A stretch of 64,000 bases of DNA from Ferruginibacter sp. (GTDB taxonomy: Bacteria; Bacteroidota; Bacteroidia; Chitinophagales; Chitinophagaceae). The stretch lies in the NCBI GenBank assembly GCA_013141115.1, contig JABFRP010000002.1, positions 2,530,647 to 2,594,646 on the forward strand, written 5' to 3'. The notes under the pieces are model-generated. The model had not been told where the DNA came from. It was given only the letters and a program-made list of their open reading frames with translations, and did no database searches. Positions 40,409 through 51,031 of this stretch are shown here, piece after piece. Every line of letters begins with the position of its first letter. The stretch's first letter is position 1. The position numbers were made by a program, and so were the translations under genes.

Positions 40409-40957
40409 ATGGATGAAGTTGAATTAATACATAGCATTCTGGAGGGTGACCAGCAGAATTATACGATATTGATAAAACAATACCAGTCTAGTGTATTTCG
40501 TACAGCTATGGGACTGCTGCATAATAAGGAAGATGCAGAAGAAATTGCGCAGGATGTTTTTGTAAAAGTTTATCAGTCACTCTCTTCCTATAATGGTAAG
40601 GCGGCCTTTTCTACATGGCTTTACCGCATTACCGTAAATACCAGTTTAAATTTTCTAAGAAAGAAAAAACGCAAAACTTTCTGGGCCGGATTGGCAGATA
40701 TGTTGCAGGTTGCGTCAAAAGACAAATCTGCGGAAGCCTTATTAACAGAGCGTTCAGACCATGCTGTTATTCAGCAAGCTCTGGATGCATTGCCCGAAAA
40801 ACAGCGGCTGGCATTTGTATTTACCAAATATGAAGAACTTCCCCAAAGGCAAGCAGCCGAAATTATGAACATCAGCGAAGGTGCTGTTGAACAACTGGTC
40901 ATCCGTGCAAAAAACAATCTGAAAAAAATATTAGAAAAAGAAGGGTATGGGGCATAG
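40409..40957 (+). CDS. ECF-type RNA polymerase sigma factor
   Basis: YQSSVFRTAMGLLHNKEDAEEIAQDVFVKVYQSLSSYNGKAAFSTWLYRITVNTSLNFLRK; LPEKQRLAFVFTKYEELPQRQAAEIMNISEGAVEQLVIRAKNNL. Confidence 0.95.
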   Translation: MDEVELIHSILEGDQQNYTILIKQYQSSVFRTAMGLLHNKEDAEEIAQDVFVKVYQSLSSYNGKAAFSTWLYRITVNTSLNFLRKKKRKTFWAGLADMLQVASKDKSAEALLTERSDHAVIQQALDALPEKQRLAFVFTKYEELPQRQAAEIMNISEGAVEQLVIRAKNNLKKILEKEGYGA

Positions 40958-41000
40958 GATTTTTTAAACATTAATTGTCTAACTATTAAACAGCGATACA

Positions 41001-41309
41001 ATGAGCAGTAAAAAAGATATTGATCAACTGATTAACAACTTTGTTGCAGCGGAAAAAGATACAGCATTCAATCCGTTTTTATCTACCCGTGTAATGGCGG
41101 CAATAGATAAACAACGGACTGAAAAATTGTTTGTTTTTTCACCCGTATGGAGAACAGCAGTGATGGCAGTAAGTCTTTTTATTGCAGTGTTTGCGGGTAT
41201 TGCAGCAGGCAGCCTTTATCAATCAAAAAATGATGTTGCTGATATGGTGCTGATGAATGATGCCAGCATGGAAAATTTTGCCTTGTACAATCAAATGAGT
41301 AATGAGTAA
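41001..41309 (+). CDS. Small single-TM protein, possible anti-sigma factor
   Basis: Directly downstream of ECF sigma; cytoplasmic N-terminus then TM VWRTAVMAVSLFIAVFAGIAAG. Confidence 0.6.
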   Translation: MSSKKDIDQLINNFVAAEKDTAFNPFLSTRVMAAIDKQRTEKLFVFSPVWRTAVMAVSLFIAVFAGIAAGSLYQSKNDVADMVLMNDASMENFALYNQMSNE

Positions 41310-41314
41310 ATGCA

Positions 41315-41839
41315 GTGATGATGAAAAGGAATCAATTATTAAAATGGGCGGTGGTTTTGCTGGTAATAACCAATGTGGTTACAATAGCAACTATTCTTTA
41401 TCATAACTACAAAGAAAGTGTCGTGGCGGATAGTGTTGCCATCAATACCGGGGCTGGTGTAAACATGCTCAACGGCAGATTTTTCCGGCAAACACTTGGT
41501 TTTAGTGAGGTGCAGATGGATTCGTTTCGGGATATAAACCAGGATTTTCGTCCTTATGCAATGGATTTAACTTTTGGAATAGATTCTTTAAAAACAGCCA
41601 TGTTTACTGAATTACAAAAAGCTGCACCGGATACCGTAGTACTAAGCAACCTGTCTGAGCAGATTGGCCAGATGCATGGTAAATTGAAATACGGAACCTT
41701 TCATTTTTATTTAAACGTAAAAAAAATATGTTCACCTGCACAGAGCGTTGAGTTGGAAAAAGCCTTTCTGCCATTGTTTAAAACCGAAAACATAACTACA
41801 CCTAATCAGCACCGGCGAAGAGGCCGGGACAACAACTAA
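41315..41839 (+). CDS. Spy/CpxP-like periplasmic stress/heavy-metal sensor protein
   Basis: N-terminal TM; NGRFFRQTLGFSEVQMDSFRDINQDFRPYAMDLTFGIDSLKTAMFTEL. Confidence 0.7.
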   Translation: MMMKRNQLLKWAVVLLVITNVVTIATILYHNYKESVVADSVAINTGAGVNMLNGRFFRQTLGFSEVQMDSFRDINQDFRPYAMDLTFGIDSLKTAMFTELQKAAPDTVVLSNLSEQIGQMHGKLKYGTFHFYLNVKKICSPAQSVELEKAFLPLFKTENITTPNQHRRRGRDNN

Positions 41840-41867
41840 TAATTTTATAACAACTAAATATTAAAAC

Positions 41868-42161
41868 ATGAAAAAGTTTATGATTGCAGCAATCTTAATG
41901 ATTGCTACCAGCGGAGTATTGTCTGCCCAAAATACAAGACCAGGCAACGGTAAACCCGGAACAAATAAAGACATGCCCACTTTTGTTGATGCAAATAAAA
42001 ACGGTGTTTGTGATACCTATGAGAGCGGCAACCGGCTGGCAGTAAAAGGAGCGGGCCAGGGACAGCGACTGAACAGGGGACAGGGAGCAGGTAATGGTAA
42101 AGGTAATGGCAGGTGTGGTGCAGGCAGGGGAAACTGTAATGGCAGAAGAAGAGCAATTTAA
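41868..42161 (+). CDS. Small secreted protein with EF-hand-like loop and Gly/Asn/Arg-rich tail
   Basis: Signal peptide; FVDANKNGVCDTYE; GAGQGQRLNRGQGAGNGKGNGRCGAGRGNCNGRRRAI. Confidence 0.6.
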   Translation: MKKFMIAAILMIATSGVLSAQNTRPGNGKPGTNKDMPTFVDANKNGVCDTYESGNRLAVKGAGQGQRLNRGQGAGNGKGNGRCGAGRGNCNGRRRAI

Positions 42162-42310: not shown

Positions 42311-42814
42311 ATGCTAATAGCTATAAGAAACTGGAAATACGAGGATTTAAACTCACTGGTATTGCATGCAAACAATATTAAAATTTGGAATAATCTCCGC
42401 AATTATTTTCCCCATCCATATACAGAAGAAGATGGCAAAGCGTGGCTGAAAAAAGTAGTGGATGCGTTGCCTGCAGTAAACATGGCGATTGATGTAAATG
42501 GACAGGCCGTGGGAGGAATAGGTTTGATATTGAATGGAGATGTGTACATCAAATCTGCAGAGATTGGTTATTGGCTAGGGGAGGAATATTGGGGGCAGGG
42601 TATTACTACCGAGGCAGTAAGGTTAATGACCGAATATGCGTTTTACTATTTTGACCTGTTGCGTTTGTATGCAGAAGTGTTTGAAAATAATAAAGCATCC
42701 ATGCGTGTGCTGGAAAAAAATGGTTACTACCTGGAAGGTGTGCGTCGCAAAGCAGTTTTTAAAAATGAAATTTTAATGGATGATTATATCTGGGTAAAAC
42801 TGAGGGCATGGTAG
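42311..42814 (+). CDS. GNAT family N-acetyltransferase (RimJ-like)
   Basis: EIGYWLGEEYWGQGITTEAVRLMTEYAFYYFDLLRLYAEVFENNKASMRVLEKNGYYLEGVRRKAV. Confidence 0.93.
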   Translation: MLIAIRNWKYEDLNSLVLHANNIKIWNNLRNYFPHPYTEEDGKAWLKKVVDALPAVNMAIDVNGQAVGGIGLILNGDVYIKSAEIGYWLGEEYWGQGITTEAVRLMTEYAFYYFDLLRLYAEVFENNKASMRVLEKNGYYLEGVRRKAVFKNEILMDDYIWVKLRAW

Positions 42815-43171: not shown

Positions 43172-44224
43172 ATGGAAAAGTCTGATAACCTCACAACGAT
43201 AGCCGTAACAGGATTAAATGCTATTGATAGTCCGGGACCCGGCATTGCAGTAATCAGGGCGCTGAGAGATGGGCTGGCAAAACCTTTGCGGATTATTGGC
43301 CTGTCTTATGAAACATTGGAGCCGGGTATTTACATGCATGATGTGGTGGATAAAACCTACCAAATTCCTTACCCCGCAGCGGGTTCAGATGCCTTGCTCA
43401 GGAGATTGCAGTATATACATGAAAAAGAAAACCTGCAACTCATCATTCCCAATTTTGATGCAGAACTGCACAACTTTATAAAACTCGGCCCGGTATTGCA
43501 AACTATGGGTATTGCCACATTTCTCCCAACACAGGAGCAGTTTGATGTGAGGGATAAAATCAACTTATTCAGGTTTGGACAACAACAGGGGTTAACAGTT
43601 CCAAAAGATAAAATCATCAACAGCATTGCTGAATTAAATTCCTGCGAAGAATCACTGGGCTTTCCGTTGGTTGTAAAAGGAAAATTTTATGATGCGATTG
43701 TGGCCTATACAATGGAGCAGGCACAAAAGGCTTTTTATAAACTTTCTGCAAAATGGGGCTTCCCCATTATTGTACAGGAATTTATTGATGGTACAGAAAT
43801 AAATATTGCAGTACTGGGCGATGGAAAAGGCAATGCGGTGAGCATTATTCCCATGCGAAAACTGTACATCACCGACAAAGGAAAAGCATGGGCAGGAATT
43901 ACACTGGAGGATGATAAGTTGATAAAAGTGGCCAGTGATTTTGTGAATGCCACTAACTGGAAAGGTGGCTGTGAGCTGGAAATTATGAGAACTAAAAAAG
44001 ATGAATTGTATATCATGGAAATCAATCCACGTTTTCCGGCATGGATATATTTATCGGCTGCCGCAGGGCAAAACCAGCCCGCAGCGCTTGCTAAGATGGC
44101 CATGGGAGAAGCCGTACCGGTTTTTACCGGATATGAAGTGGGCAAGATTTTTATCCGTTACTCCTGGGATCATATCACAGATATCAAAGAGTTTCACCAG
44201 GTAAGCGGGATGGGTGAATTGTAA
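43172..44224 (+). CDS. ATP-grasp domain protein
   Basis: LGFPLVVKGKFYDAIVAYTMEQAQKAF..GFPIIVQEFIDGTEINIAVLGD..GGCELEIMRTKKDELYIMEINPRFPAWIYLSAAAGQN. Confidence 0.88.
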   Translation: MEKSDNLTTIAVTGLNAIDSPGPGIAVIRALRDGLAKPLRIIGLSYETLEPGIYMHDVVDKTYQIPYPAAGSDALLRRLQYIHEKENLQLIIPNFDAELHNFIKLGPVLQTMGIATFLPTQEQFDVRDKINLFRFGQQQGLTVPKDKIINSIAELNSCEESLGFPLVVKGKFYDAIVAYTMEQAQKAFYKLSAKWGFPIIVQEFIDGTEINIAVLGDGKGNAVSIIPMRKLYITDKGKAWAGITLEDDKLIKVASDFVNATNWKGGCELEIMRTKKDELYIMEINPRFPAWIYLSAAAGQNQPAALAKMAMGEAVPVFTGYEVGKIFIRYSWDHITDIKEFHQVSGMGEL

Positions 44225-44264: not shown

Positions 44265-45623
44265 ATGAAAAAAATGCTTTACGAAAGTCCTTCCATCCAA
44301 AAATTGAATGGAGGAATGATGAATAAGTTTGGAACGAGGACAGAGTATGAACCCGTAAAACAAATTGATGGTGTGGCGGTGCAAACAATGATGGCGCAGT
44401 ATGGCTCGCCTTTATTTGTTTTAAGTGAGCGAACCATACGACGCAATTATCAAAATGCCGTGAGGGCATTTAAAACACGTTATCCAAAAGTGCAGTTTGC
44501 CTGGAGTTATAAAACCAATTACCTCAATGCTGTTTGCAAAATATTTCACCAGGAGGGGAGCTGGGCAGAAGTGGTGAGCGGATTTGAATACCGCAAAGCG
44601 ATTGGCAACGGGGTGCCAGGCAATAAAATTATTTTTAATGGCCCCGAAAAAACAAATGAAGAACTGGAATTGGCAGTTAATAATGGATCATTAATTCACA
44701 TTGATCATTTTGATGAATTGTACCAGTTGATAATATTGAGTGACCAACTGAACAAAAAGCCCAGGGTAGCAATCCGTGTAAATATGGATACGGGAATTTA
44801 TCCCATGTGGGATCGTTTTGGTTTTAATTATGAAAATGGCCAGGCCTTTAGTGCACTCAGCAAAATTGTAGCATCCGGTAAAATGGAACTCATCGGTTTG
44901 CATTGTCATATCGGAACATTTATGTTATCAACCGATGCCTATGCCACTGCCGTAAAAAAATTGGGAGACCTTGCATGGAAATGCAAAACACAACTCAATA
45001 CAAGCATACAATATATTGACCTGGGTGGAGGTTTTCCATCAGCCAATACTTTAAGAGGTTCCTTTCTTCCGGGTACAGATAATGTACCATCTGTAGATGA
45101 ATTTGCTGAGGCCATTACAAATGGTTTGCTGCAACTCGGTTTTGGAGCAGATGAATTGCCCCTGCTAATTTTAGAAAGCGGCCGGGTATTAATAGATGAT
45201 GCAGGCTACCTCCTTGCATCTGTTATTGCCAACAAAAGATTAAGCGATGGCCGCCGTGCAACCATACTGGATGCGGGTGTAAACCTGTTATTCACTTCCT
45301 TTTGGTACGATCATAAAATAAGCCCGGCACAGGATTTTACACAACATTCCGAAGACATGGTATTGTATGGGCCATTGTGTATGAATATTGATGTGATAAG
45401 GCAAAGCATCAACCTGCCAATATTAAACCGTGGCGATAAAGTGGTAGTGCATAAAGTGGGTGCCTATAATATGACACAGTGGATGCAGTTTATACAAATG
45501 CGTCCCAATGTGATATTGATTGATGAACAAGGGCAAACACACCTGGTGAGAGCTGCAGAAAACCTGCAGTATGTAGAGCAACCCGAACGCATGCCCGAAC
45601 ATTTGAAACCAATTGATTTATGA
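44265..45623 (+). CDS. PLP-dependent (fold III) decarboxylase, DAP/ornithine-decarboxylase-like, with leader-like N-terminus
   Basis: FAWSYKTNYLNAVCKIFHQEGSWAEVVSGFEY..HCHIGTF..YIDLGGGFPSA; N-terminus MKKMLYESPSIQKLNGGMMNKFG. Confidence 0.88.
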   Translation: MKKMLYESPSIQKLNGGMMNKFGTRTEYEPVKQIDGVAVQTMMAQYGSPLFVLSERTIRRNYQNAVRAFKTRYPKVQFAWSYKTNYLNAVCKIFHQEGSWAEVVSGFEYRKAIGNGVPGNKIIFNGPEKTNEELELAVNNGSLIHIDHFDELYQLIILSDQLNKKPRVAIRVNMDTGIYPMWDRFGFNYENGQAFSALSKIVASGKMELIGLHCHIGTFMLSTDAYATAVKKLGDLAWKCKTQLNTSIQYIDLGGGFPSANTLRGSFLPGTDNVPSVDEFAEAITNGLLQLGFGADELPLLILESGRVLIDDAGYLLASVIANKRLSDGRRATILDAGVNLLFTSFWYDHKISPAQDFTQHSEDMVLYGPLCMNIDVIRQSINLPILNRGDKVVVHKVGAYNMTQWMQFIQMRPNVILIDEQGQTHLVRAAENLQYVEQPERMPEHLKPIDL

Positions 45624-45632
45624 TAAAAGGCG

Positions 45633-47837
45633 TTGCCTGTTAAATTGAAAAATACGACTGCTATATCATTTCTTAAGTATTTCACTGCTACGGTATTGAA
45701 CAGTTACTCCATGTTGTTCTTTAGCAACAAAAAGTTTTTTGCAATAATGGTATTGCTGGCTTCTTTCTTTAATCCTTACACAGGCTTTGCTGGTTTGGTT
45801 GCTACAATAACAGCAGCTATAGTGGCCTATTTTATTGGCTTTAGCAGGGAGCAGGTAAAGAGTGGCCTATATACTTACAGTGCTACATTGGTAGGATTGG
45901 GTATGGGTACTTTTTATGAGTTTAGTATGGGGTTTTGGATATTGCTGGTTTTGGCAACAGTATTGGCGGTATTATTATCTGCAGCCTTTATTGCCCAACT
46001 GGGTAAAAGCAATCTGCCGGCATTGTCGTTGGCGTTTATTTTTACGTTGTGGGTGGTCATTCTTTCATCCAAAGAATTTGCGGTGATTGGCCTTACTCAG
46101 CGTAATATTTATTGGCTCAATGAAATGTATGCTGCAGGAGGAACGGGATTAATCAACTTTGTGCAACGGGTAGAAACGATTGCCATGCCGGATATGTTGT
46201 CAGGTTTTTTGCGCTCATTAAGTGCCATCCTGTTTCAAAGTAATATTGCTGCAGGTATTTTGCTCAGTATTGGATTACTCTTTTTTTCACGGATTGCCTT
46301 AACCCTGATGGTGGCAGGTTATACCATTGCCATTCTATTTATTCAACTGATGGATGGTTATGCAGGAAGCGTAAATTATTATAACCTTGGTACCAATTTC
46401 ATGCTGGTGTCCGTGGCACTCGGTGGCTTTTACATTATTCCTTCTGTGCGATCTTTTTTCTGGTCGTTGATAACGGTGCCTATTTCATATATACTTGTAA
46501 TAGCACTTTGGAAGATTACCTACACCTGGGGATTACCTGTTTTTTCATTGCCATTTTGTATTACGGTTATTCTTTTTCTTTTTGTTTTGCAGTTGCGCAA
46601 AGCAGGGGGTAAAATGGTTCTTACTCCCATCCAGTATTACAGCCCCGAAGAAAATCTTTACAGGTTTACCAATAATAAAGAACGGGTGCTGAGTGATTTT
46701 TATTACTATCACCTGTCGCTTCCATTTATGGGCGACTGGACGGTAAGCCAGGGATATGATGGCACTATAACACATAAAGGAGATTGGGGAAAGGCACTTG
46801 ATTTTGTAATTACTGATAAAGAAAATAAAACCTACCAGGGCACAGGTACTGAGCCGGAACAGTATTATTGTTATAACAAACCCGTGCTGAGCCCGGCAGA
46901 TGGCATTGTAGAAGAAATAATTGATTATGTGGAAGACAATGCCATTGGAGGAAATAACACTCAACAAAACTGGGGTAATACGATTATAATAAAACACGCC
47001 GCCACACTTTATACAAAACTATCTCATTTAAAACGGGGATCATTTAAAGTGGCAAAAGGCGCTTTTGTAAAAAAAGGAGATATCCTTGCTACCTGCGGCA
47101 GTTCCGGCCGATCTCCCGAACCGCACCTGCATTTCCAGGTGCAGGCTACACCTTATATAGATTCTAAAACCCTCGCCTATCCTTTGGCTTATTTTTTACA
47201 ACAGCAAAATGGCAACAGCATAATAAAAACCTATTCAGTGCCGCTTGAAAATAATATTGTTGGCAACATAATTCCCAATGCACAATTGCAGCAGGCCTTT
47301 GATTTTAAACCGGGTTATATCATGAAAGTCACCGCAGCCGGTTATGAAGAGGAGGCATGGGAAGTGATGGTGAGTACCTATAATGAAACTTATTTTTATT
47401 GCAGCCGGCATCATGCGTATGCTTATTTCATCAACAATGGCAGCATGTTTTACTTCACCCATTATTTTGGCAACCAGCATACATTGCTTTACCTGTTTTA
47501 CCAGGCAGCTTACAAAATAGTACTCAGCACCAATAAAAAAATAACAATTACCGATAGCTTTTCACAAAACATATTTGCAACACATCCGCTAAAGTGGTTT
47601 CAGGATCTGCTGGCCCCGTTTTTTATATTCATGAAAATGAAATATACCAGTATGGTAATAAAGGATGATGATATGCTGGGTGGCGGAAACATAGTGTTGA
47701 AAAGCTATTCACAGCAATACATGCCCGGTTCTGTAAAACAAAAAATGCTGGCCGGTATAGAAATACAGCAGGGCAAACTCCATGGTTTTAATGTAGCATT
47801 TAATAATAATAAAATTGAAGCCTCATGCAAAAATTAA
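45633..47837 (+). CDS. Urea transporter-like membrane domain fused to M23 (LytM) metallopeptidase domain
   Basis: N-terminal SYSMLFFSNKKFFAIMVLLASFFNPYTGFAGLVATITAAIVAYFIGFSREQVKSGLYTYSATLVGLGMG (UT-like, repeated); C-terminal THKGDWGKALDFVI..NWGNTIIIKHAATLYTKLSHLKRGSFKVAKGAFVKKGDILATCGSSGRSPEPHLHFQV (M23 H..D and HxH). TTG start in the track; ATG at 45711 alternative. Confidence 0.8.
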   Translation: MPVKLKNTTAISFLKYFTATVLNSYSMLFFSNKKFFAIMVLLASFFNPYTGFAGLVATITAAIVAYFIGFSREQVKSGLYTYSATLVGLGMGTFYEFSMGFWILLVLATVLAVLLSAAFIAQLGKSNLPALSLAFIFTLWVVILSSKEFAVIGLTQRNIYWLNEMYAAGGTGLINFVQRVETIAMPDMLSGFLRSLSAILFQSNIAAGILLSIGLLFFSRIALTLMVAGYTIAILFIQLMDGYAGSVNYYNLGTNFMLVSVALGGFYIIPSVRSFFWSLITVPISYILVIALWKITYTWGLPVFSLPFCITVILFLFVLQLRKAGGKMVLTPIQYYSPEENLYRFTNNKERVLSDFYYYHLSLPFMGDWTVSQGYDGTITHKGDWGKALDFVITDKENKTYQGTGTEPEQYYCYNKPVLSPADGIVEEIIDYVEDNAIGGNNTQQNWGNTIIIKHAATLYTKLSHLKRGSFKVAKGAFVKKGDILATCGSSGRSPEPHLHFQVQATPYIDSKTLAYPLAYFLQQQNGNSIIKTYSVPLENNIVGNIIPNAQLQQAFDFKPGYIMKVTAAGYEEEAWEVMVSTYNETYFYCSRHHAYAYFINNGSMFYFTHYFGNQHTLLYLFYQAAYKIVLSTNKKITITDSFSQNIFATHPLKWFQDLLAPFFIFMKMKYTSMVIKDDDMLGGGNIVLKSYSQQYMPGSVKQKMLAGIEIQQGKLHGFNVAFNNNKIEASCKN

Positions 47838-49003
47838 TCATAGTAACACTGCTGGTTTTCCTGTTGGCTACAACTGCTACAAAGGCACAAACAAATATTT
47901 CTTTTGCTGCTGCCGACAGTCAATCCTATGCTTTATATGAAAAAGCACAATGGAAAACATTATTGCTATTTGGAAAAGAAGCCATTGCCAATGGGCAGGA
48001 TTTTGTTTTATTAAGAATGCGGATGGGGTATGCAGCTTTTATGCTGGGTAACTATAGCGAATCAATCAAACATTACGAAACAGTATTGAAGGAAGATACC
48101 TACAATAGCACGGCGCATTATTATATTTACTGGAGCCGGGTAAACCTTAACCAGCCGGAAATGGCAATGGCTGAAGTCAAATTTTTAACCCCCGGAATGA
48201 TTGCTGATAAAAATAGCAGGGCTGCTGCTTTTACCAATGCCGCAGTAGAGTTGAGCTTCAAGCAGGCTTCCGTAAAATCAAGAGGTAATTCCATGTATAC
48301 AAGGGTGGGCCTGGGTAACCGTTTTAGTCACGGTTTTCATATACAGCAATCAATAGCCACTTACCAGCAAAAAATCAGTGAGCCCTTACTTACAGCGGTT
48401 ACAAAAAACACTAATATAAATATCAACCAGGTAGAATATTATAACAGGGTCATGTTTAACCTTAATCGAAACTGGCAACTGAAAACTGCCTATCATTATA
48501 TTTATACGCCTTTTAATAATTTCAGGTATCACAATCACCTGTTGCTGGCAGGGATTAAATACAATGGAACCTATTTAAACATACAGGCCGATGCTATCAT
48601 TGGTAGAATTACAGACACATCCACGCAGCAATACAACCTGCAGTTGGATTTATACCCCCTTGGTAATCTTAACCTGTATAGTTTTTCCACTGCAAGTTTT
48701 CGGCAGCAAAAGGAATCAGCCTTTAATTTCAGGCAAGTGATTGGTGTAAAATTGCTGAAGCAATTATGGCTGGAAGGAAATATTACAATTGGCGAATTTA
48801 AAAACTATGCAGAAAATGATGCACTGTACGTTTACAATGCCATAGACGTTAATAAACAAAAAACAGGTATAACAGGTTACATTTTGTTAAACGAAAAATT
48901 ATCTGCCCAAATCGGTTATACTTACGAGCAACGCCAGTTATTTGGTACCACATCTACTTTTAATCAACATTCAATTACAGGAGGCCTATCATGGAAATTT
49001 TAA
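47825..49003 (+). CDS. TPR plus outer-membrane beta-barrel protein (YaiO-like)
   Basis: Signal peptide; TPR-like YAAFMLGNYSESIKHYETVLKEDTYNSTAHYYIYWSRVNL; barrel-like C-terminus ending ..GGLSWKF. Confidence 0.65.
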   Translation: MQKLIIVTLLVFLLATTATKAQTNISFAAADSQSYALYEKAQWKTLLLFGKEAIANGQDFVLLRMRMGYAAFMLGNYSESIKHYETVLKEDTYNSTAHYYIYWSRVNLNQPEMAMAEVKFLTPGMIADKNSRAAAFTNAAVELSFKQASVKSRGNSMYTRVGLGNRFSHGFHIQQSIATYQQKISEPLLTAVTKNTNININQVEYYNRVMFNLNRNWQLKTAYHYIYTPFNNFRYHNHLLLAGIKYNGTYLNIQADAIIGRITDTSTQQYNLQLDLYPLGNLNLYSFSTASFRQQKESAFNFRQVIGVKLLKQLWLEGNITIGEFKNYAENDALYVYNAIDVNKQKTGITGYILLNEKLSAQIGYTYEQRQLFGTTSTFNQHSITGGLSWKF

Positions 49004-49611
49004 AAAAATCAATGCTTGCAATGTTATCAATGTTATTGCTAAATTTTGCAACAGCACAACAAGAATCAAAGCTGCAGAGTGCTTTTTTAGAAAGCTATAC
49101 ACAGGAGTACAATAAACAATATGCAATAGCCATCACTACACTCAGCAAAGTATATGATGAGCATAGTTATGAACTTAACCTGAGGTTAGGCTGGTTAACT
49201 TATTTGAATAAAGATTACCCGAAATCGCAATTGTATTATCAAAAAGCAGTGTACCTGAAGCCTTATGCTGTAGAAGCTAAATTGGGATTGGTGCAGCCCC
49301 TGGCCGCTTTGCAAAATATAGACAAACTCCTGCAGGTATACGATGAAATATTAAAAATTGACCCACAAAATACAAAGGCCAATTACTGGGCAGGCGTAAT
49401 TTATTATAACCGCAAAAAGTATGAGCAGGCCGCAAGGTTTTTTGAGAAGCTGGTGAATCTTTACCCTTTTGATTTTGACGGTAACCATATGCTGGCATGG
49501 ACTTATTTAAACCTTGGCAGGAATGCTGATGCTAAAATTTTATTCAACAAGGCGCTGCTGATAAAACCGGGTGATGTTTCCTGTAAGGAAGGCCTGGTAA
49601 AAACAGGGTAG
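48991..49611 (+). CDS. Secreted TPR protein
   Basis: Signal peptide; repeats LGWLTYLNKDYPKSQLYYQKAVYLKPYAVEAKLGL, AGVIYYNRKKYEQAARFFEKLVNLYPFDFDGNHMLAWTYLNLGRNADAKILFNKALLIKPGD. Confidence 0.85.
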   Translation: MEILKKSMLAMLSMLLLNFATAQQESKLQSAFLESYTQEYNKQYAIAITTLSKVYDEHSYELNLRLGWLTYLNKDYPKSQLYYQKAVYLKPYAVEAKLGLVQPLAALQNIDKLLQVYDEILKIDPQNTKANYWAGVIYYNRKKYEQAARFFEKLVNLYPFDFDGNHMLAWTYLNLGRNADAKILFNKALLIKPGDVSCKEGLVKTG

Positions 49612-49721: not shown

Positions 49722-50402
49722 ATGAAAACATTAATAAAAAAATCAGGCTTTGCCTTTTTGTTAGCTGCATTTATTTTTACTGCGGCTTCCTGCACCAAAG
49801 ATGCCAACGTTGATAGCAGCAATAACAACAATAGTATGAATACTGCAAATCTTCAGGCACAAATCAGCATGCTGCCAATCGAATCTTTAAGCACCGCTGA
49901 ATTAAATACACTGTCATTAATGCGGGAAGAAGAAAAACTGGCAAGAGATGTTTACATAACCTTGTACAATAAATGGGGCGTAAATATTTTTACCAATATC
50001 AGCAAAAGCGAACAAACCCACATGGATGCTATACTAATGCTGTTAAATAAATATGGCCTGCCAGATCCTGTTGGTTCAAATGCTATCGGCGTATTTAGTA
50101 ATGCAACATTGCAGAATCTGTACACGCAATTGGTGGAGCAGGGCAGCATCAGCTTACTGGATGCTTACAAAGTAGGCGCTACCATTGAAGACCTTGATAT
50201 TTTTGATCTTAATTCAGCCCTTACAACTATCGATAACCAGGATATTCGTCTCGTGTATGATAATCTTACAAAGGGAAGCCGTAATCACATGAGGTCTTTT
50301 TATAAAAATATTTTAAGCCTTGGCAGTACCTATACCCCTCAATACATTTCCCAGGCTGCATTTGATGCCATCATCAGCAGTGCAATGGAAACCGGATTTT
50401 AA
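49722..50402 (+). CDS. DUF2202 (ferritin-like) lipoprotein
   Basis: Lipobox TAASCTKD; LSLMREEEKLARDVYITLYNKWGVNIFTNISKSEQTHMDAI..SRNHMRSF. Confidence 0.88.
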   Translation: MKTLIKKSGFAFLLAAFIFTAASCTKDANVDSSNNNNSMNTANLQAQISMLPIESLSTAELNTLSLMREEEKLARDVYITLYNKWGVNIFTNISKSEQTHMDAILMLLNKYGLPDPVGSNAIGVFSNATLQNLYTQLVEQGSISLLDAYKVGATIEDLDIFDLNSALTTIDNQDIRLVYDNLTKGSRNHMRSFYKNILSLGSTYTPQYISQAAFDAIISSAMETGF

Positions 50403-50419
50403 ATCTTAAAAAATGTAAA

Positions 50420-51031
50420 ATGAAAAATGTTTTGTTCTTTACAGTGATTATGTTGCAATCGTTAATTGGGTTTGCACAGCAAAATACTTTATTAACCAAA
50501 AATGAAAATGAAGCCATTCTTTATATGAGAGAAGAAGAAAAATTAGCAAGGGATGTGTATGATTCGATGTACGTAAAATGGGGAGGTAATCCATTTGGTA
50601 ATATTCGCTATAGCGAACAGGTACACATGGATAAAATGAAAATGCTGATTACTACTTACAGTTTGCAGGATCCGGTTGTAACAACCAAGAACAGTCATGG
50701 AATGTTTATAAACCCAACACTGCAAAAATATTACAACGAGCTTGCAGCAACAGGTAGTCAGTCTTTAACAGCCGCATTAAAAGTGGGTGCCAAAATAGAA
50801 GAGCTGGACATTGTCGATCTGGAAGAAAGAATTAAACAAACGCAAAATGAAAATGTCATCAACTCTTTTGAGTTTTTAAAAAGGGCATCTCATAATCACT
50901 TGCGGGCATTTGTGCGCAGGCTTAAAATGGAGGGTGTAAATTATGAACCAGTGATACTGAATAAAGTATCCTTCAATAAAATAATTAAAGCAGAAAAGGC
51001 CAAAGGCAGATGTAAACAAAAATGTGATTGA
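50420..51031 (+). CDS. DUF2202 (ferritin-like) secreted protein, tandem paralogue
   Basis: LYMREEEKLARDVYDSMYVKWGGNPFGNIRYSEQVHMDKM..SHNHLRAFVRRL. Confidence 0.88.
   Translation: MKNVLFFTVIMLQSLIGFAQQNTLLTKNENEAILYMREEEKLARDVYDSMYVKWGGNPFGNIRYSEQVHMDKMKMLITTYSLQDPVVTTKNSHGMFINPTLQKYYNELAATGSQSLTAALKVGAKIEELDIVDLEERIKQTQNENVINSFEFLKRASHNHLRAFVRRLKMEGVNYEPVILNKVSFNKIIKAEKAKGRCKQKCD

Follow-up and report, generated by a model that had tools for sequence, protein, structure and literature searches.

A lasso-leader-like N-terminal tail on a PLP decarboxylase of Bacteroidota, probably a docking tag for a PqqD-like RRE protein

Docking of leader peptides on RRE proteins, and its use in RiPP scaffolds, has already been described (RRE-Finder, PMC7470986; PMC12710340). 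The leaders of lasso peptides and of linear polyphosphorylated peptides (LPPs) carry the motif [Y/W]xxPx[L/V/I/F/A]. In the structure of LppB with LppA, Asp70 of the RRE forms a hydrogen bond with the leader Tyr, and a kink at the leader Pro is held in place by Asn33; mutation N33A nearly abolishes binding of the YxxP leader and D70A weakens it, and PbaB1, an RRE with a Trp leader, has Gly and Gln at these two positions (PMC13381572). The authors of the LppA study also suggested that contact with modifying enzymes depends on the part of the leader lying off the RRE (PMC13381572).

Related enzyme systems have been described as well. FslC decarboxylates N-acylated ornithine, and has neither a PqqD or ATP-grasp partner nor the N-terminal tail considered below (alignment to it starts at residue ~30). 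In the butirosin system the ATP-grasp ligase BtrJ charges the carrier protein BtrI, and BtrK, a fold-III PLP enzyme, carries out the decarboxylation. In borosins the precursor is fused to its own N-methyltransferase, with a C-terminal core that is modified by this same enzyme without a discrete RRE.

The window analysed here is a stretch of 64,000 nucleotides from Ferruginibacter sp. (contig JABFRP010000002.1; all positions are those of the whole stretch), belonging to a genome of 5.4 Mb. It contains a fold-III PLP decarboxylase (ORF 44265–45623, + strand, ATG start) with the N-terminus MKKMLYESPSIQKLNGGMMNKFGT, exactly as an earlier note on this DNA had read it. That note had proposed that the N-terminus is a fused leader docking on a PqqD-like partner, the gene for which does lie two genes upstream, with an ATP-grasp gene in between (Table 1). 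The operon runs in the order PqqD, ATP-grasp, decarboxylase, urea-transporter/M23, TPR and TPR, and this order is constant in nearly all untruncated loci. An ATP-grasp ligase is thus paired with a fold-III PLP decarboxylase as in BtrJ/BtrK, but an RRE and a tailed decarboxylase stand in the place of the acyl carrier protein; none was found among the scanned operon products, so the locus is not of the BtrI/J/K type. Nor is it a lasso locus, as the operon contains no B2 protease, C cyclase, LPP enzymes or short precursor. Lasso and LPP systems have a short precursor as the ligand, whereas the putative ligand here is the N-terminal end of a metabolic enzyme of 452 aa. The fusion of leader-like sequence and enzyme recalls the borosins, but here the putative tag is N-terminal and sits on a PLP decarboxylase; a core at the C-terminus of an N-methyltransferase is not what was found.

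Table 1. Features of the decarboxylase operon and its surroundings in the window.
Feature	Position	Strand	Support
GNAT acetyltransferase, peripheral	42311..42814	+	PF13302 7.9e-27
PqqD-like discrete RRE, 80 aa	42908..43150	+	PF05402 6e-14; AF2 pLDDT 90.6
PqqD-like Asn27 codon	42986-42988	+	
PqqD-like Asp64 codon	43097-43099	+	
ATP-grasp ligase (D-Ala-D-Ala-ligase/carbamoyl-phosphate-synthase-like), presumed partner enzyme	43172..44224	+	PF15632 1.4e-11, PF02655
Decarboxylase N-terminal tail (residues 1-24), leader-like putative docking tag	44265..44336	+	conserved in all full-length orthologues; pLDDT ~38 for residues 1-20
Residues 6-11, YESPSI, [Y/F]xxPx[I/L/V] putative RRE-binding motif	44280..44297	+	lasso/LPP leader likeness; co-variation of residue 6 with residue 64 of PqqD
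Residues 17-23, GMMNKFG, second conserved motif GxxNKxG	44313..44333	+	K21 162/162, G23 161/162, G17 156/162
Invariant Lys21 codon of decarboxylase	44325-44327	+	
Fold-III PLP decarboxylase barrel and C-terminal sheet domain, FslC/LysA/BtrK-like	44364..45620	+	Pfam PF02784 2.2e-29, PF00278
Urea-transporter domain fused to M23 (LytM) peptidase domain	45633..47837	+	PF03253 2e-48, PF01551 2.7e-16
TPR protein, probable outer-membrane C-terminal part, conserved operon member	47825..49003	+	
Second TPR protein, conserved operon member	48991..49611	+	

The urea-transporter/M23 gene directly follows the decarboxylase in essentially all untruncated loci, and its presence there suggests an envelope step or export. 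The two TPR genes (47825–49611) overlap and are found in the operon across Bacteroidota. The GNAT gene adjoins the operon in only a subset of loci (Chitinophagaceae-like). Two adjacent DUF2202 (PF09968) proteins are encoded at 49722–51031 (3.5e-63 and 5.9e-50), and DUF2202 genes also occur upstream of the operon at loci L045 and L104. An ECF-type sigma factor, a short putative anti-sigma protein and a small secreted Gly/Asn/Arg-rich protein lie upstream of the GNAT gene (40409–42161), with sigma-factor homologues upstream of the operon also at L045, L056 and L114. Defence-system models gave no match.

The best match of the decarboxylase in the PDB, both by sequence and by fold, is the N-citrylornithine decarboxylase FslC (7kh2), and BtrK is among its nearest solved relatives; the nearest named relative is from Flavihumibacter stibioxidans (Chitinophagaceae; 88%). 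Specific profiles scored below their thresholds (214.5 against a trusted cut-off of 297.9 for the LysA profile TIGR01048; 211.5 against a cut-off of 500 for the FslC NCBIfam profile), and a profile scan of the operon products revealed no siderophore or rhizoferrin genes. In LysA the Arg of the RPA(L/M)Y motif contacts the distal carboxylate. This residue is Thr in the decarboxylase (alignment to 1twi), as it is in FslC, which makes free DAP an unlikely substrate as far as the sequence tells. The comparison hints faintly at a small, probably amide-linked amino acid.

Alignments of the PDB homologues to the decarboxylase start only at residue ~30–34, indicating that the tail was added to an enzyme family that otherwise lacks it, and the matches of relatives with 28–29% identity likewise begin at residues 31–37. 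All full-length orthologues, by comparison, carry the tail, which occurs in 162 distinct versions built of two modules, [Y/F]xxPx[I/L/V] (residues 6–11) followed by GxxNKxG (residues 17–23), the second being conserved to the same degree as the first. The agreement among the tails greatly exceeds chance: Pro9 and Lys21 are found in all 162 versions, Gly23 in 161 and Gly17 in 156, residue 11 is always I, L or V, and residue 6 is either Tyr (152) or Phe (10). The likeness to lasso leaders pointed out in the earlier note therefore stands for the first module, which resembles the [Y/W]xxPx[L/V/I] motif of lasso and LppA leaders, where Asn and Asp of the RRE hold the Pro and the Tyr (PMC13381572). 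It does not extend to the Gly of 'LNG' (residue 16), which had been matched to the lasso pattern YxxPxLxxxG and is kept in only 2 of the 162 tails; it is the next residue, Gly17 (Y+11), that is conserved.

Every orthologue without a contig break aligns from residue 1–6, and third codon positions in the tail diverge ~2–4 times more than first and second positions, so that the tail must be translated and under purifying selection. A true start further downstream is ruled out by this codon pattern together with the conservation of the tail. An apparent 645-aa fusion in genome G823 was also rejected, as the same frame is merely open upstream of the start. In the AlphaFold2 monomer residues 1–20 have a pLDDT of ~38 and the segment 1–26 stays below 50, with the barrel above 90 from residue ~31, consistent with disorder of the tail, which could nevertheless become ordered in the dimer.

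The PqqD-like protein is an RRE by its PqqD/RRE profile, its winged-helix fold and its YxxP-binding residues. PF05402 was matched by all 41 family members examined, and the six best Foldseek hits of the model are structures of two lasso RREs, TbiB1 and TfuB1, in complex with leader peptides (TM 0.82–0.90). The RRE fold is shared with the lasso systems (TbiB1/TbiA, TfuB1=FusB1, PbaB1) and with LppB/LppA. The core aligns without gaps to LppB, with Asn27 corresponding to N33, Asp64 to D70 and Phe68 to F74, and TfuB1 also has Asn and Asp at the first two of these positions. All 183 aligned PqqDs have Asn27, and every locus with a Tyr tag has Asp64; residue 68, the aromatic position between the pockets, is F, Y or W in most and L in nine. 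The protein also scores 38.5 with TIGR04353 (HPr-rel-A; cut-off 35), but no HprK-like or nucleotidyltransferase gene occurs in the operon and it does not belong to an HPr-rel-A system; automatic annotation may thus mislabel this family.

Decarboxylase orthologues (46–100% identity) were detected in 34 of 396 sampled Bacteroidota genomes, the next scores being those of tail-less proteins with ~29% identity, and the ATP-grasp was present in exactly the same 34 genomes. A further sample, drawn from one class, gave an orthologue in 75 of 396 genomes and another sample in 32 of 197, and a database scan for the decarboxylase returned more than 586 stretches. PqqD lies upstream of the decarboxylase in 223 of 235 loci. 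The other 12 comprise seven loci cut by a contig end, three from genome G447, one with masked sequence and a short flank (L162) and one at which the decarboxylase stands alone at a contig end beside a dnaA-like ORF (L068). Loss of PqqD in G447 was rejected, as the gene is found one position further upstream, with Asn27 and Asp64, and the tail has Tyr. Each of the genomes checked encodes one tag protein and one PqqD. One contig titled Candidatus Kuenenia (Planctomycetota; L098) carries the operon, and its decarboxylase groups inside Bacteroidota; a mis-binned MAG and a recent transfer are the alternatives. Conserved, paired with an adjacent PqqD and absent from the ~29% relatives, the tail behaves as would be expected of a fused leader docking on the PqqD-like partner.

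A sharper test of the proposed docking is offered by tail residue 6 and PqqD residue 64, a contact pair in solved complexes, which have switched together. The 187 unique tail/PqqD pairs divide into 177 with Tyr6, every one of which has Asp64, and ten with Phe6, in which residue 64 is Tyr (five), Ser (four) or His (one), a departure from the lasso and LPP systems. Two apparent exceptions, 'M' (L230) and 'I' (L107), proved to be pattern artefacts: the tail of L230 reads YVKPSI, that of L107 also has Tyr, and both PqqDs have Asp64. Over the 882 columns compared in the three proteins, residues 6 and 64 alone separate the Tyr from the Phe group cleanly (one of 452 columns in the decarboxylase, one of 80 in PqqD and none of 350 in the ATP-grasp). 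In a set of 91 sequences this pair has the highest normalised mutual information of 36,160 pairs, but drops to rank 25 once the APC correction is applied. On a barrel-only tree the Phe tags occupy three separate positions, as they do in every one of the 200 bootstrap trees, and residue 64 differs between the three. At least two of the switches lie on strongly supported branches; L230 (Tyr, Asp), for example, is sister to L022 (Phe, His).

A phylogenetic sign test on the two supported switch pairs gave p = 0.5, a test that with only two such pairs is incapable of significance by itself. The weight of the coupling comes instead from the fact that solved YxxP-leader/RRE complexes had named this pair beforehand, and residue 64 changes in the direction these structures predict, since Phe has no hydroxyl with which to bond Asp. 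The clean separation at residues 6 and 64 and the repeated switching make it very likely that the tail is bound directly by the PqqD-like RRE.

These results also bear on the idea that the tail is a structural element which, in the dimer, covers the active site of the other subunit as a lid or substrate gate, its leader likeness being incidental. Two strictly conserved motifs would suit such a role, and the AlphaFold2 model is a monomer in which the loops 179–182, 264–270 and 370–377, all in dimer-dependent active-site regions, are also of low confidence. A structural tail gives no reason, however, why residue 6 should change in step with PqqD residue 64 alone among all columns, or why an RRE with YxxP-specific residues should always be present, and we regard it as improbable; residues 17–24 could still have a structural function in addition.

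Could the RRE serve a separate precursor instead? No small ORF with the tail motif was detected near any locus, no unannotated small ORF was conserved across 80 loci (the largest cluster comprised six lineage-specific loci), and searches of seven genomes yielded no other tag-like protein below E 0.07. The tail-like sequence is unique in the genome carrying the window (next best match E 2.4), and the decarboxylase tail is the sole RRE ligand found. An ordinary RiPP cluster, with the true precursor a missed small ORF and the decarboxylase tail a mere mimic, might be suspected from the RiPP-like pairing of PqqD with ATP-grasp and from the formal TIGR04353 match, but against the outcome of these searches and intergenic gaps of just 9–40 bp within the window's operon it is barely conceivable.

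We propose that the first ~24 residues of the decarboxylase are disordered and serve as a docking tag resembling lasso leaders, in which the [Y/F]xxPx[I/L/V] portion would be bound by the dedicated PqqD-like RRE. Tyr6 would occupy a hydrophobic pocket with a hydrogen bond to Asp64, and Asn27 would fix the kink at Pro9. The tag-bound RRE would bring the decarboxylase to the ATP-grasp encoded between the two genes, giving a ligase/decarboxylase unit in which both enzymes would act on a single small amino-acid substrate, one by ligation and the other by decarboxylation. GxxNKxG, lying off the RRE by analogy with LppA, would contact the ATP-grasp. We lean towards the decarboxylase and the ligase being joined in one complex, the ATP-grasp being tied computationally to the RRE and tag by gene co-occurrence. 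The reading as a whole, a docking tag of this kind with a dedicated RRE and a ligase/decarboxylase complex, seems probable, and of the two arrangements envisaged in the earlier note, trans-recruitment is favoured over a precursor/enzyme fusion.

The second module leaves room for another proposal, as Lys21 and Gly23 are more strictly conserved than RRE docking requires. Contact with the ATP-grasp, a modification site and an active-site lid are all candidate roles for GxxNKxG, the mutual information of which with the ATP-grasp, PqqD or the barrel showed nothing above phylogeny. In the usual RiPP logic an RRE and an ATP-grasp modify residues after the leader motif, and the tail might accordingly be leader and core in one, presented by the RRE to the ATP-grasp, which would join an amino acid or another carboxylate to Lys21 or elsewhere in residues 12–30. 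This modification would be either the final product, a modified enzyme, or a tethered substrate later decarboxylated by the barrel. The strict conservation of Lys21 and Gly23 within a predicted disordered tail fits this proposal, as does the want of any other candidate precursor near the operon or in the genome, and the substrate decarboxylated by BtrK is an amino acid on a carrier. If the decarboxylase itself is the acceptor, the obvious candidate site is Lys21. Its invariance is, however, equally explained by binding to the ATP-grasp or the barrel, and an enzyme that is its own stoichiometric carrier would require some means of release, for which the operon has no obvious protease, its M23 domain being probably periplasmic. 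Self-modification is unlikely in our view. So, a little more, is the specific case in which the decarboxylase is its own carrier, its tail combining a leader with a swinging attachment site, the RRE handing the tail to the ATP-grasp, the substrate being loaded on Lys21 and the barrel decarboxylating it while tethered. Such small-molecule synthesis on a peptide would recall the pearlins, in which amino acids are built on a ribosomal carrier peptide, but there the scaffold peptide is a separate one and the ligases depend on tRNA (PMC9303977). If true, it would amount to carrier-bound catalysis without a carrier protein, made of RiPP parts, and Lys21 as an attachment site would define a new kind of system.

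In the open-licence literature we found no paper describing the PqqD/ATP-grasp/decarboxylase operon, nor any that reports a leader tagging the N-terminus of a metabolic enzyme where a precursor peptide is lacking; the reuse of a RiPP leader as an enzyme docking tag thus appears to be undescribed. RREs count as hallmarks of ribosomally made peptide products, and in genome mining a precursor is sought beside every PqqD-like gene. Yet this operon, which occurs in as many as about a fifth of the genomes sampled from one class of Bacteroidota, yielded no RRE ligand other than the N-terminal end of a metabolic enzyme. A docking system of peptide antibiotics appears here to have taken on a second task, that of assembling ordinary enzymes. 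If docking on the tail is true, leader/RRE pairs would be a general enzyme docking system, some orphan PqqD genes would be explained, and the natural matched pairs of tag and RRE (Tyr with Asp; Phe with Tyr, Ser or His) would be available for orthogonal protein tethering.
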